From positions 124,001-188,000 of the forward strand of contig JAHJJX010000027.1 of NCBI GenBank assembly GCA_018822665.1: a DNA stretch of 64,000 nucleotides. The letters run 5' to 3'. Numbering within the stretch: position 1 is the stretch's first letter; each line of letters begins with the position of its first letter. The stretch comes from a bacterium (lineage in GTDB: Bacteria > Campylobacterota > Campylobacteria > Campylobacterales > Sulfurimonadaceae). The notes beneath the pieces are model-generated. The model was not told the DNA's origin, made no database searches, and saw only the letters and a list, made by a program, of their open reading frames with translations. Below are positions 16,386-29,613 of this stretch, in pieces. The translations under genes and the position numbers were made by a program.

Positions 16386-16413
16386 TTACTTATTATCATT
16401 CTTAGCTGTTGTA

Positions 16414-16439
16414 TTTGCACATGCCATGGCATGTGCAAA
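16414..16439. terminator. 26-bp perfect palindrome directly after the polA stop (variant motif pair)
   Basis: TTTGCACATGCCA|TGGCATGTGCAAA; polA stop TAG is at 16440-16442 on the minus strand. Confidence 0.7.
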
Positions 16440-19160
16440 CTACTTCAACTCTCCCCAATTATTGCCAATGTTCAGGCTCGCTTTTAAAGGGACATTGAGC
16501 TCCATTATATTTTCCATGATGGATTGAAACCTTTTTCCCAAAACCTCAGCCTCTTCCTCGTTGACTTCAAAAATCAACTCATCATGAATTTGTAAGAGCA
16601 TTTTTGCATTAAGTTTTTCATCTCGTATCACTTGATATATCTTGTTCATAGAAAGTTTAATCAAATCCGATGCGCTTCCTTGAAACACAGAGTTTACCGA
16701 TTCTCTCTCATAGGCGGCTTTAAACATCGGGGTTGCATTTTCATAGTCGAAATATCTGCGTCGTTTGAGCAGGGTTTCAACAAAACCGTATTCTTTGGAG
16801 CTCTCAACGATAGAGCGAAAATAATTTCTTACAGTTGCAAAGCTGAGAAAATATTTCTCTATAATCTCTTTTGCTTCTTTAGTTGTGATGCCTAAAGTTT
16901 CTGATAACTTTTTTTGTCCCATTCCATACAATAATCCAAAATTCACTGTCTTTGCCACATTTCTTTTACCCGGAGCTTCCTCTTCACCAAAAAGTGCAAT
17001 GGCAGTTTGCATGTGGATATCTTTGTTGTTTTTAAAAGCGTCTAAGAGAACTTTATCTTTTGAAAAATGGGCAAGAAGCCGAAGTTCGATTTGTGAGTAG
17101 TCAATCCCTATGAGTTTTTTACCCTCTTCGGCTACAAAAGCTTCCCTAATCCTCAGTCCTAATTCACTTCTAGCGGGTATGTTTTGTAAGTTTGGATTTT
17201 TTGAGCTCAATCTTCCTGTTGCGGTTCCAGTTTGCACAAATGAGGTGTGTATACGACTGTGCACATCCTCTTTACTTAATTTTAATAGCGGTTCTATGTA
17301 GGTTGAATAAAGCTTGTAAACCTCACGGTACTCCAAAAGCATAGGAATAATCTCATGGCTTTGTTTTAAAGAACTTAAAACTTTCTCATCCGTAGAATAT
17401 CCTGTTTTTGTTTTTTTGCCCACAGGAAGCCCTAGCTGCTCAAATAAGACGACTCCCAGTTGTTGTGTGGAGTTAATGTTGAATTCGCTTCCGGCTTTTT
17501 CGTAAATAGTCTTGGTTAAAGTAGTTAAAGTATCTTTTACTTCAACTAAAAACTTCTCTAAAAATCTACTGTCTACTTTTATACCCTCTTTTTCCATACT
17601 TAAAAGTGTTTTTATAAAAGGAACTTCCACATGCCGAGCTTCTTCTATAAGATGTGTCGCACTTTGAAGTTCAAGCTTATGGCTTAGAAGATGAAAAAGT
17701 TTTAAAGTTATGTAAGCATCTTCAGCCGCATAAATACAGGCATCTTCTATATCAACACTTGCAAAGGTGTCCCCTTTTTTCACCGTGTCTTTAAAAGCAA
17801 CCATAGTGTGATTTAAGAGTTTATCCGAAAGCTTGTCAAGGCTGAGTGCACTCTCCGGATTTATGAGCCAAGCGAGTATCATGCTATCTGCGTATATGTC
17901 TAATGTGTCATCTTTTAAAAATCTGCTCACAAAATGCAAATCAAACTTTATATTGTGTCCGACAACACGCGAGTTAAATATTTTTTTAATGGCATTTGCA
18001 GCCTCATCTTCGCTTATTTGCTCCGGCACACCCAAATAAAAATGAGCAAAGGGAACATAAAAAGCCTCTTTATCATTCAAACTAAAACTAAATCCGACAA
18101 GAGAATCTTTTTCATAATCAAGCCCGGTTGTCTCTGTGTCAAAAGCAACTATTGTATTTTCATCTAAGGTATTTAAAACTTTTTGCAGTGCCTTTGCATC
18201 CGTTATCAGTATTGTTTTAAAATCTAACTTTTTATTCTCTTGAATTTCAACTTCAACTTTTTTAATTGCCTCTTGCTGCGTCTCTTGGCTCACCATATTT
18301 TTAGCATGAAGTGTTCTTAAAATTGCATTTTGCTCATATTTTACGAGCTCATCATAGATATTTAAAAAGGGATGTTCAATATCCATTCTATACTCTTCAA
18401 AATCAAAATGCTCCAGAACGTCATCTCTGAGTGTGACAAGTTCTTTTGACATATAAGCATTTTCTTTGGATTCTGTAAGTTTTTTTTGTATTCCAGCCGG
18501 TTTCACATTATCTATATTGGCATAAATATTGTCTAAGGTTCCAAACTCCACAAGTAGTTTTTCTGCCCCAACCTTGCCTATTCCCTTGACTCCGGGAATG
18601 TTATCTGCGCTATCACCTAAAATAGATTGATAATCTATAAACTGTCTTGGAGTGACTCCATACTTTTTAAAGCAGGCATCTTCATCAACAGTTACCCTTT
18701 TTATAGCATCCACAAGAACTATCTTACCATCGTCAATGAGCTGATACAGGTCTTTATCGTGCGAAACAACACGAACATTATAATTTTCTTCTTTTGCAAA
18801 TTTTACAACTGTCGCTATGATGTCATCCGCTTCAAAGCCGACATGCCCCAGAGTTTTATAACCCATTTTATCTATCCATTCTATTGCTATGGGCAATTGC
18901 ATGGTAAGCTCCTCCGGCGGAGCCTGACGGTGCGCTTTATAATTAGAATCTATCTCATTTCTGAATGTCGGACCTTTAGAATCTATGGCGAAGACGATGT
19001 AGTCACTATCATGCTGTTTTTGCAAAGTTGCTATAAAGTTTGTAAAACCTGTTAAAAGTCCCGTAGGAAAGCCATCTTTATTTTTAAGATGTTGGGGAAG
19101 CGCATAAAAACTACGAAAGAAAAAACCGAATGTATCTATGACCGTAACTGTTTTGCTCAT
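16440..19160 (-). CDS. polA: DNA polymerase I
   Basis: 5'-3' exonuclease (GDSADNIPGVKGIG), 3'-5' exonuclease (VAFDTETTGLDYE), polymerase motifs (IGIDYSQIELRLLAHFS, RNVAKTVNFGLLYGMG, QIHDELIFEV). Confidence 0.97.
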   Translation of the reverse strand: MSKTVTVIDTFGFFFRSFYALPQHLKNKDGFPTGLLTGFTNFIATLQKQHDSDYIVFAIDSKGPTFRNEIDSNYKAHRQAPPEELTMQLPIAIEWIDKMGYKTLGHVGFEADDIIATVVKFAKEENYNVRVVSHDKDLYQLIDDGKIVLVDAIKRVTVDEDACFKKYGVTPRQFIDYQSILGDSADNIPGVKGIGKVGAEKLLVEFGTLDNIYANIDNVKPAGIQKKLTESKENAYMSKELVTLRDDVLEHFDFEEYRMDIEHPFLNIYDELVKYEQNAILRTLHAKNMVSQETQQEAIKKVEVEIQENKKLDFKTILITDAKALQKVLNTLDENTIVAFDTETTGLDYEKDSLVGFSFSLNDKEAFYVPFAHFYLGVPEQISEDEAANAIKKIFNSRVVGHNIKFDLHFVSRFLKDDTLDIYADSMILAWLINPESALSLDKLSDKLLNHTMVAFKDTVKKGDTFASVDIEDACIYAAEDAYITLKLFHLLSHKLELQSATHLIEEARHVEVPFIKTLLSMEKEGIKVDSRFLEKFLVEVKDTLTTLTKTIYEKAGSEFNINSTQQLGVVLFEQLGLPVGKKTKTGYSTDEKVLSSLKQSHEIIPMLLEYREVYKLYSTYIEPLLKLSKEDVHSRIHTSFVQTGTATGRLSSKNPNLQNIPARSELGLRIREAFVAEEGKKLIGIDYSQIELRLLAHFSKDKVLLDAFKNNKDIHMQTAIALFGEEEAPGKRNVAKTVNFGLLYGMGQKKLSETLGITTKEAKEIIEKYFLSFATVRNYFRSIVESSKEYGFVETLLKRRRYFDYENATPMFKAAYERESVNSVFQGSASDLIKLSMNKIYQVIRDEKLNAKMLLQIHDELIFEVNEEEAEVLGKRFQSIMENIMELNVPLKASLNIGNNWGELK
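17626..17635 (+). repeat. TCCACATGCC motif copy 10 (polA, reads RHVE)
   Basis: Exact 10-mer. Confidence 0.95.
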
Positions 19161-25816: not shown

Positions 25817-26158
25817 ATGGTTAAAGTTTATGGCATAAAAAATTGTGATAGTGTAAAAAAGGCTTTGTCATTTTTTAAAGCACATCATATAGAACATGAA
25901 CTTCATGATTTTAAAACAAAAAGTGTTTCCTGCGATGAAGTATCAAGATGGCTTGGGCATGTGGAGATAAAAACTCTTTTTAACTCCCGAAGCACTACCT
26001 ATAGAGAACTTCAATTAAAAGAGTTGAACCTTGATGAAAAAAATAAAATACAATGGCTTTGTAAAGAAAATATGCTTATTAAAAGACCTGTTATAGAGTT
26101 TGAAAAAGCTGTCATAGTGGGCTTTGATGAAGATTATTATAGAGGAGTGTTTTTATGA
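25817..26158 (+). CDS. ArsC/Spx/MgsR family thioredoxin-fold protein
   Basis: KVYGIKNCDSVKKALSFFKAHHIEHELHDFKT...LLIKRPVIEF-like ending. Confidence 0.9.
   Translation: MVKVYGIKNCDSVKKALSFFKAHHIEHELHDFKTKSVSCDEVSRWLGHVEIKTLFNSRSTTYRELQLKELNLDEKNKIQWLCKENMLIKRPVIEFEKAVIVGFDEDYYRGVFL
25956..25965 (-). repeat. TCCACATGCC motif copy 11 (ArsC-like, reads GHVE)
   Basis: Exact 10-mer. Confidence 0.95.
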
Positions 26159-27252
26159 GTGAAACGCCAGACAAAATAGAAACAAGAAAAACAATTGATA
26201 TTAAAAAACTGCTTAAAAGTGTTTTGGCCTACGGCTCTTCTGATTTACACCTTGTTGTTGGCAGTGAACCGCAAATTAGAATAGACAAAGAATTAAGACC
26301 GCTTAATCTATCCGTACTTACTTCAAAAGATATAGAAGATATGGCTTATTCTCTGATTGAAGATAAACAAAAAAGGATTTTTGAAGATAAAAATGAGCTT
26401 GACTTTTCTTTTGAGCTTGAGAACATAGGTCGTTTTAGAGCAAACTATTATAGAACTATCCATGGGGTAGCCTGTGCATTTCGTATGATTCCCATTGAAA
26501 TTCCAACCCTTGATCAATACAACAACAATCCTATATTTAAAGAGCTCATCAAAAAAGAAAAAGGCTTAATCCTTGTAACAGGTCCTACGGGCAGCGGAAA
26601 ATCAACCACGCTTGCATCCATGCTTCATGAAATAAATCTTACGGAACGAAGACATATCATAACAGTTGAAGACCCGGTTGAATTTGTGCACAAAAACATA
26701 AAATCCTTATTTTCTCAAAGAGATGTTGGAAGTAGTACGGCATCCTTTGCCACTGCATTAAAATATTCGCTTCGACAAGACCCCGATGTAATCCTTATAG
26801 GGGAGATGAGAGATGCTGAAACTATCGGAGCGGCACTGACGGCAGCGGAAACCGGTCACTTGGTTTTTGGGACATTACATACAAATTCTGCACCCGGAAC
26901 GATTAACCGTATCATAGATGTTTTTGACGGGGATGAGCAAGCACAAGTAAGAGCGCAACTTTCAGGTTCTCTCATTGCTGTTATCTCGCAATCTCTCATA
27001 CCAAAAATTGGCGGCGGAAAAGTTGCGACTCAAGAAATTCTTATTACCAATCCCGCTGTATCCAATCTTATAAGAGAAGATAAAGTACACCAAATCTATT
27101 CTCAAATGCAGTTAAACCAAAACCAGACACACATGAGCACCCAAACTCAAGAACTAATAGATTTGCTGCAAAAAAATATGATCAGCAAAGAAAATGCTAT
27201 AAAAAATTCAAACAGACCTGAAGAGCTTATCAAAATGATAGAAGGTCTCTAA
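26155..27252 (+). CDS. pilT: Type IV pilus twitching motility ATPase PilT
   Basis: SSDLHLVVGSEPQIRID, GPTGSGKSTTLASM, IITVEDPVEFVHKNIKSLFSQRDVG, RQDPDVILIGEMRDAETI, GHLVFGTLHTNSA. Confidence 0.95.
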   Translation: MSETPDKIETRKTIDIKKLLKSVLAYGSSDLHLVVGSEPQIRIDKELRPLNLSVLTSKDIEDMAYSLIEDKQKRIFEDKNELDFSFELENIGRFRANYYRTIHGVACAFRMIPIEIPTLDQYNNNPIFKELIKKEKGLILVTGPTGSGKSTTLASMLHEINLTERRHIITVEDPVEFVHKNIKSLFSQRDVGSSTASFATALKYSLRQDPDVILIGEMRDAETIGAALTAAETGHLVFGTLHTNSAPGTINRIIDVFDGDEQAQVRAQLSGSLIAVISQSLIPKIGGGKVATQEILITNPAVSNLIREDKVHQIYSQMQLNQNQTHMSTQTQELIDLLQKNMISKENAIKNSNRPEELIKMIEGL

Positions 27253-27261
27253 AGATATCTT

Positions 27262-27271
27262 GGCATGTGGA
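27262..27271 (-). repeat. TCCACATGCC motif copy 12 (hairpin left arm after pilT)
   Basis: Exact 10-mer. Confidence 0.95.
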
Positions 27272-27289
27272 AATACTTTATTTTGTGTT

Positions 27290-27299
27290 TCCACATGCC
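27290..27299 (+). repeat. TCCACATGCC motif copy 13 (hairpin right arm after pilT)
   Basis: Exact 10-mer. Confidence 0.95.
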
Positions 27300-27420
27300 A
27301 AGGATAATTAAACTCTCTAAAGCAATCATTAAAATTTTCTTATTTATTTAACTTAACAATAAATTAACAATTTACTATTAAAATTCCTGCCTTAACTATT
27401 AATTTGTAGGGGGATAAGGA

Positions 27421-29613
27421 ATGAATAAAAATATATATTTATCTGTAATATGCGCGTTGGCTATCCATGCAACGGCATCAGATTTGGGGACTATACAGGT
27501 TGAATCGTCCACAATTGATGATAAATTTGATACTAAAGCATTTGAAATATCAAGTACAGCGACAATGCAGGGCAGTGAAGTGGAGACATTTCATGCAGAA
27601 AATATAGCCGATGTTTTAAACAGCATTCCCGGTGTCACTGCTAGAAAAAATGAGGGCGACTCTAACAAAATACATATCCGCGGTATAGCAACTGAGATGT
27701 ATATGGGTGAAAAACCAGGCGTGGCAATAGTAATAGACGGGGTGCCTGTGCAAGAAAGAGCAGGAAGCGTCAATATTGATATTGACAATATTGAATCTCT
27801 CAAAGTAATCAAAGGAGGTGCTTCTTACCTCTATGGAAATGATGCACTTGCAGGTGCCATTATCATTACAACCAAAAGACCAAAAAATAAAAATGAATTA
27901 CTTGTCACTACGGAACAGGCAAGTTACGGGTATCAAAAATATTTGGCAAATTACAATGCAGGTACGGAAAATTTTGCCCTTAATGTACAGGGAAGCTATA
28001 AAAAAAGCGATGGGTACTGGGAAAATTCCGATTATTGGGCAAAATCTTTAAATGGAAAATTACAATACTACATAGACGATAGCAGCGATATAACAATCGG
28101 TGTAGACAAATCTACACGATACGAAAATGATACAGGTTCAATCACGCACAGCACCTACAATAAAACAACAGGGCTCTATACAAATAATATAGAAACAAAT
28201 CCAACAAGTGCCGGTGAGGTCGGCTTTGCTACTAATTACGATATCACTTTGGATAAATATTTTATTACCTACTCCAACGATTTAAGTAACAACTCAAATC
28301 TCATGGCTCAAGTTTACAAGTATGAAGATACTACAAAAAACAGAACCAATCCTTATGACAGCAACACAGATGGCGTTAAAGACGACCATACTTATAATGC
28401 ATATGCAAATACAGACCAGCTTGGCTTAAAATCTGAATTTAGACGAGACGGCGAAGAGGTTGCTTCCATGCTGGGAGTTGATATTGCTAGAAATAATGAA
28501 AACAAAAATACAAAATACAGAGTAGATGTGCAAGATTATGATCGCAATGGGCTTCCCACAACATTTCATCCTACGGGAGAAATTGCCAGCGACACAAGTT
28601 CAAAAGAAAATATAAATGCAATCTATGGAGAATTAAAACATCAGCTCATTGAGGATTTTGTCGTGACAATCAATGCGAGGTATGACAAAATCGCTTACGA
28701 CTACACAAATAATCTTAACTCCCTCAATTGGAAAAAAGATTTCTTTGAACAATCTTACAGAGCCGGTGCAACGTATGAGCTCGCAGACAAGCAAATCATT
28801 TTTGCAAACATTTCAACAGGTTTTAGAGTACCGACTCTTGACCAACTCTATGCCGGTGATATGATAACTTCTACCTACAGCGGAACATACGTAAATAATA
28901 CAGATATCAAAACAGAAAAAACATACAACTTTGAGATTGGTTTTCGATACAAAACTGATTTACTCTCTTACGAAGCATCTGTTTTTCAACTTGAGAGAAA
29001 AGATGTTATTGGTAAAAGCAGTGGAAACTATGCCTCTACGAGAGGTGTGAATGTTTATTATGACAATATGGCAGATATTCAAAACAGAGGTTTGGAGTTC
29101 AGCGTAAACAGTGATAAAAGTAGAGAACTATCCTTTGTATTTGCATATACGTATTTGCATTCAAAATATACAAGATATGATGCATTTACTTTAATTCTAA
29201 ATGACCAAACGACAGGAAGAGACTATGTAGAGGGTGTCTATAATTTAGCTGAAAATGTAGTGCCTAGAACATCAAACCATACAGTTTATCTTGAGGGAAA
29301 TTACAGAGTAATTCCAAAATTAATGTTAACTGCGGATGTAAACTACAGATCTGCCCAGTTTGCAGATGAGTTAAATGAAATTAAGGTGGATGGATATTCA
29401 GTAGTTAATTTAAGAGCCAACTACAATACTCAAATATCCGACTTTAATATAGAAGTTTTTGCAAAAATTGAAAATGTGCTAGATGAAAAATACTACATGA
29501 TGCCGCGAGCGACGGGTGATAGAAATGATGATGGACTCTATGACATAAGAGACATGGGCTTAACCGTAAATCCCGGCAGAGTTTATCTTGCCGGGCTTTG
29601 TGCTAAGTTTTAA
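27421..29613 (+). CDS. TonB-dependent receptor
   Basis: Signal peptide, plug domain (IADVLNSIPGVTARKNEGDSNKIHIRGI ... VVIDGVPV-like ... GGASYLYGNDALAGAIIITTK), C-terminal F. Confidence 0.95.
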   Translation: MNKNIYLSVICALAIHATASDLGTIQVESSTIDDKFDTKAFEISSTATMQGSEVETFHAENIADVLNSIPGVTARKNEGDSNKIHIRGIATEMYMGEKPGVAIVIDGVPVQERAGSVNIDIDNIESLKVIKGGASYLYGNDALAGAIIITTKRPKNKNELLVTTEQASYGYQKYLANYNAGTENFALNVQGSYKKSDGYWENSDYWAKSLNGKLQYYIDDSSDITIGVDKSTRYENDTGSITHSTYNKTTGLYTNNIETNPTSAGEVGFATNYDITLDKYFITYSNDLSNNSNLMAQVYKYEDTTKNRTNPYDSNTDGVKDDHTYNAYANTDQLGLKSEFRRDGEEVASMLGVDIARNNENKNTKYRVDVQDYDRNGLPTTFHPTGEIASDTSSKENINAIYGELKHQLIEDFVVTINARYDKIAYDYTNNLNSLNWKKDFFEQSYRAGATYELADKQIIFANISTGFRVPTLDQLYAGDMITSTYSGTYVNNTDIKTEKTYNFEIGFRYKTDLLSYEASVFQLERKDVIGKSSGNYASTRGVNVYYDNMADIQNRGLEFSVNSDKSRELSFVFAYTYLHSKYTRYDAFTLILNDQTTGRDYVEGVYNLAENVVPRTSNHTVYLEGNYRVIPKLMLTADVNYRSAQFADELNEIKVDGYSVVNLRANYNTQISDFNIEVFAKIENVLDEKYYMMPRATGDRNDDGLYDIRDMGLTVNPGRVYLAGLCAKF

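Follow-up and report, generated by a model that had tools for sequence, protein, structure and literature searches.

Facing copies of a putative uptake-sequence tag form candidate U-poor 3'-end hairpins in a Sulfurimonas clade

Descriptions of uptake sequences exist for two families, the Neisseriaceae and the Pasteurellaceae (PMC12616744, PMC3630211). Neisseria DUS dialects follow phylogeny (PMC3630211), and inverted DUS pairs in this genus concentrate between convergent genes. In N. meningitidis, the two pair orientations occur in a ratio of 226:5, with 3.18 T in the five bases after the pair, and the orientation of H. influenzae pairs is less biased (50:25) (PMC1852404). The first-pass annotation of the DNA studied here stated that inverted DUS/USS pairs act as terminators in Neisseria and Haemophilus, and this precedent agrees with the literature (PMC1852404, PMC3630211).

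The motif described here resembles the Neisseria DUS GCCGTCTGAA in its length of 10-12 nt and in its hundreds to thousands of copies on both strands, and shares with the Neisseria system dialects that follow phylogeny and inverted pairs concentrated between convergent genes. Like the Haemophilus/Pasteurellaceae USS AAGTGCGGT, it is an abundant tag of which some pairs are gene-end hairpins, and its pairs, like those of the USS, are less biased in orientation than Neisseria pairs. Unlike these resemblances, its sequence is related neither to the USS nor to the DUS, and it occurs in another phylum than Neisseria.

The window, i.e., the whole stretch of DNA analysed, comprises 64,000 nt of a genome whose genus we infer to be Sulfurimonas. 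Between a forward-strand pilT gene at 26155-27252 (PilT/PilU family type 4a pilus ATPase; TIGR01420, E 1.2e-133, above cut-off; Pfam T2SSE) and a forward-strand gene coding for a TonB-dependent receptor at 27421-29613 (Pfam PF00593 and PF07715), sequence inspection confirmed the 15-bp perfect stem reported by the first-pass annotation, with inverted arms at 27259-27273 and 27288-27302 set 14 nt apart. A gap of 6 nt separates the pilT stop from the hairpin, which ends 118 nt before the receptor ATG (27421). As also claimed, both the left arm (CTTGGCATGTGGAAA, + strand) and the right arm (TTTCCACATGCCAAG, - strand) are full copies of a motif, which proved to be genome-wide and DUS/USS-like; the left-arm PWM site (27259-27274) scores 25.7 bits, the maximum of the window, and the right arm scores 24.5 bits. 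The outer three nucleotides on each side of the spacer TACTTTATTTTGTG (27274-27287, + strand) pair with each other, so that three further pairs (T-G, A-T and C-G) extend the stem inward to 18 bp, one of them a G-U, and leave a loop of 8 nt. Upon folding, the 101-nt RNA of the site reached -34 kcal/mol (z -6.5), a value equalled by none of 200 shuffles. A stable stem immediately 3' of the gene, as in an intrinsic terminator, was found at this site and for the class of pairs. The U-tract expected after such a stem is absent at the pilT site, where the sequence is GATAATTAAAC and the tail GATAATTAAACTCT (27303-27316, + strand) contains none; a terminator scan of the region listed no site at the hairpin. 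The window contains a second inverted pair at 16413-16440 (- strand), a variant (GGCATGTGCAAA) in '-+' arrangement with zero spacer, that abuts the stop of a minus-strand ORF (16440-19160) and likewise lacks a U-tract.

The consensus of the motif, approximately cTTGGCATGTGGAAat, was derived from 464 kb of the source genome, the stretches analysed amounting to ~18% of its 2.5 Mb. Across the 2.5-Mb genome we counted 292 exact copies of the 11-mer GCATGTGGAAA (144 and 148 by strand), compared to 4 for a reversed-word control, and GGCATGTGG was observed 142 times versus 0.9 expected in 400 kb. A PWM whose training set came from this genome but from outside the window found 29 sites in the window versus 2.0 in shuffled sequence, and 192 sites in 400 kb, i.e., ~1,200 per 2.5-Mb genome by extrapolation. 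This motif, hereafter dialect 1 and also written TTGGCATGTGGAAA, is an asymmetric word of ~13 nt, and most of its copies are unpaired and lie within genes. Both strands are used equally in every 40-kb bin, with no relation to GC skew. This balance disfavours Chi- and KOPS-type motifs, which were rejected since orientation does not follow the replication strand in these bins. A promoter or transcription-factor site was also rejected, as dialect 1 is rarest in divergent gaps among the intergenic classes. One motif-poor stretch, at 80-160 kb of contig C9 of G000 (L005-L008), carries 10 sites in 80 kb, where several adjacent bins have 12-16 per 40 kb, and might be acquired DNA.

The 12-mer TGGCATGTGGAA was found in bulk in ~15 of the 136 genomes of the source genus; most strong carriers have 118 to 762 copies, and weaker ones go down to ~25-60. 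Apart from a few intermediates, the remaining genomes of the genus contain 0 to 7 copies, and among 398 genomes sampled across the class the word never exceeded 4 copies outside the genus. The carriers are mostly MAGs. In de novo word counts, GGCATGTGG ranked first in G000, G083 and G084, TACATGTAG in G032, G062 and G065, and a variant resembling TAGCATGTGGAA in G036. A second, related dialect, TTACATGTAGA, belongs to a sister clade: ~20-25 species of the genus carry it in bulk (~30 to 194 copies) and lack dialect 1, and one intermediate genome (G155) has some of both. Dialects GGCATGTGGAA and TTACATGTAGA have CATGT in common. The three dialect-2 species among the 18 in a PilT tree formed a separate clade (100/100); dialect 1 was not recovered as one clade in this single-gene tree, in which most other forks lacked resolution. 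Dialect 2 lies mainly in coding sequence with little intergenic enrichment (e.g., L141-L142 and L146-L149), and the species that carry it exhibited no excess of inverted pairs (1 among 94 sites); pairing into hairpins may therefore be specific to dialect 1. A palindromic relative, TTACATGTAA, is common both in a second genus of the family and in a different family. The palindromic word CTTTACATGTAAAG, with ~10 copies per 40 kb in L267-L269 and L272-L282 (from a different genus and from a different family within the order), may represent either a related tag or an independent element with a regulatory or methylation-linked role. The density of the TTACATGTAA/CTTTACATGTAAAG palindrome is highest in divergent gaps, hence it may be a different element from the motif. 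In G067 (L154-L155), a species without the motif, we observed another iterated word family, GTTCAGGATGACGG, which looks like a dispersed repeat.

Facing copies recur across genomes. In 944 kb from three dialect-1 genomes, we counted 18 inverted pairs with spacing of up to 20 nt compared to 1.9 expected (maximum of 7 in 300 trials) from random placement of the sites inside the same region classes, and 1 direct pair compared to 2.1 expected; the classes rest on simple ORF calls, and their precision is limited accordingly. Over the same 944 kb, the density of GGCATGTGGAA per 10 kb rose from 2.4 in ORFs through divergent (6.9) and tandem gaps (12.5) to 33.4 in convergent gaps. A search of GTDB genomes for the pair pattern returned at least 111 distinct '+-' pairs, 103-105 of the 111 listed belonging to Campylobacterota-type bins. 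Among the matches listed, 38 of the 85 classifiable intergenic pairs lie in convergent gaps, which make up only 11% of intergenic sequence (p = 4e-15); for intergenic motifs taken together, the figure is 26 of 95 (p = 0.0006). Spacers are mostly 2-7 nt among these matches, and the median distance from stop codon to pair is 17-20 nt (17 nt among the GTDB matches listed). A strong fold was predicted for 19 of 20 pair-bearing 3' ends. Pairing outside the motif is weak, being confined to three flanking positions (z 2.2-2.6), so that any selection on the stem past the motif is putative. Run on these stretches, the proposed search for inverted pairs spaced by less than 20 nt and for their position relative to stop codons returned pairs that recur and cluster 3' of stops and in convergent gaps. 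The excess of inverted pairs, the lack of one for direct pairs and the 3' position make a hairpin-specific excess of pairs at 3' ends well supported.

The position of the pair after pilT had been thought suggestive, though perhaps coincidental, as this pilus retraction ATPase is often needed for DNA uptake. This idea was not borne out: none of 17 pilT orthologues is followed by a motif pair, which led us to reject a functional link between pilT and the hairpin and to regard the neighbourhood as coincidence. One motif copy follows pilT in G077 and one dialect-2 copy in G032. Another strong, U-poor hairpin (z <= -3) occurs within 60 nt past pilT in 8 of the 17 relatives; the place after pilT favours a hairpin, and the motif pair is the source species' version of it.

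Of 308 gene ends in G000, G083 and G084 that lack a motif pair, 65 also bear strong hairpins, versus 2% of ORF controls, and only 9 of the 65 have a U-tract. U-poor 3' hairpins thus seem common in the lineage, and the presence of strong, mostly U-tract-less hairpins at about one fifth of pairless 3' ends suggests an unusual mode of 3'-end formation. In E. coli, U-poor 3'-end hairpins of the REP type protect mRNA ends. The hairpins described here resemble these in having a strong stem past the stop codon without a U-tract, and differ from them in that the stem is built from a motif whose copies are mostly unpaired and frequently located inside genes.

We propose that pairs of this genome-wide DUS/USS-like tag are retained because they serve as 3'-end hairpins of the upstream transcript, acting without a U-tract, a reading that we favour slightly on the basis of sequence comparisons. 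Two facing copies past a stop codon would fold into a strong RNA hairpin that could shield an RNA end such as one generated by Rho followed by exonuclease trimming; alternatively, the hairpin may help RNA polymerase to stop without a U-tract. The uptake-type tags would thereby yield 3'-end hairpins acting via RNA protection and/or Rho, and Rho is encoded in the genome. A classic Rho-independent terminator made of two tags, as in Neisseria, would also account for the strong stem, for the short distance past stops and for the enrichment in convergent gaps, and we consider it rather improbable given the tails. Not only does the pilT site lack a U-tract, but the tails of 123 hairpins are depleted in T, as five or more T in 8 nt occur in 17 (14%) of the transcript-strand tails versus 25% of background 3' positions. 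Likewise, the five bases past the second motif of pairs in convergent gaps contain a mean of 0.73 T among the pairs listed, far below the N. meningitidis value given above, whereas the same genomes do have hairpins with 6-T tails elsewhere. Orientation does not supply such tails either, since the pairs in the 944 kb from three dialect-1 genomes split evenly into 9 '+-' and 9 '-+', unlike those of Neisseria. The extended motif starts with T's, hence a '+-' pair is followed by A's; in contrast, the USS starts with AA, and a '+-' USS pair carries its own T-tail. Two of the three termination signs of Kingsford et al. are therefore absent, and enrichment between tail-to-tail genes is present. Accordingly, the part of the terminator claim that stands is the recurrence of pairs just 3' of stops and between convergent genes, whereas a classic intrinsic terminator was rejected on its U-tract and orientation.

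Our preferred reading of the pairs as U-less 3'-end hairpins must also be weighed against explanations in which RNA plays no part. The pairs could be a passive by-product of tags that gather in permissive 3' sequence and come to face each other by chance or templated mutation. The peak of lone motifs in convergent gaps (16.7 versus 2.4 per 10 kb in CDS), the weak extension of the stem and the lack of conservation of the pair after pilT all agree with this view, and a bias toward templated inverted duplication is compatible with the pair excess. We nevertheless regard it as unlikely, because inverted pairs, unlike direct ones, are about ten times as numerous as random placement in the same classes would give, and because pairs are more biased toward convergent gaps than intergenic motifs in general among the matches listed. 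Alternatively, the motif may be another kind of iterated word, HIP1-like or linked to CATG methylation, with the hairpin as an incidental outcome. Although CATG is common to all dialects, and the palindromic relative of another family and genus is densest in divergent gaps, the asymmetry of dialect 1, its length, its pair excess and its 3' bias differ from a short palindromic methylation site, making this option a doubtful one as well. By far the least probable is a mobile repeat of the REP or MITE type. The pair is palindromic and intergenic, and a few copies do have common flanks (L049, L096), but sequence conservation ends ~3 nt beyond the motif and the majority of copies are single and in genes; it was rejected for want of conserved flanks.

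Copy excess, strand equality and clade-specific dialects with a common core are all features of DUS/USS, and the motif most likely represents a self-DNA tag for natural transformation in this Sulfurimonas clade. ComEC, two DprA-family matches, a small ComEA-like HHH protein, PilT and type IV pilins are present, a gene set compatible with natural transformation and not diagnostic of it, since competence genes are widespread in bacteria and do not discriminate. Comparison of the pilins revealed no charge or cysteine pattern tracking dialect and singled out no receptor. A two-pilin cluster occurs in motif-bearing and motif-free species alike and so pinpoints none. Another candidate source, the pilin cluster C26, was rejected as it is a type II secretion system. 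Unlike in Neisseria, a ComP-type receptor was therefore not singled out among the pilins compared, and the uptake role is putative. For Campylobacter, methylation is taken to underlie the recognition of self-DNA in transformation. The open-access papers searched contained no report of uptake sequences in Sulfurimonas or Campylobacterota, and mentions of the motif words were limited to unrelated oomycete matches; a third DUS/USS-like system is thus plausible.

To our reading of the sequences, the chances are about even that Sulfurimonas possesses a third, independently evolved uptake-sequence system with at least two dialects, in which facing copies give rise to U-less 3'-end hairpins. The lack of a U-tract and the equal orientations separate selection for a hairpin from selection for a T-tail, two factors that are confounded in Neisseria. 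If true, a third uptake-sequence system, in an unrelated lineage and with dialects of its own, would allow tests of how such tags originate, of whether the receptor is once more a minor pilin, and of whether the pairing of tags into 3' hairpins evolves repeatedly.
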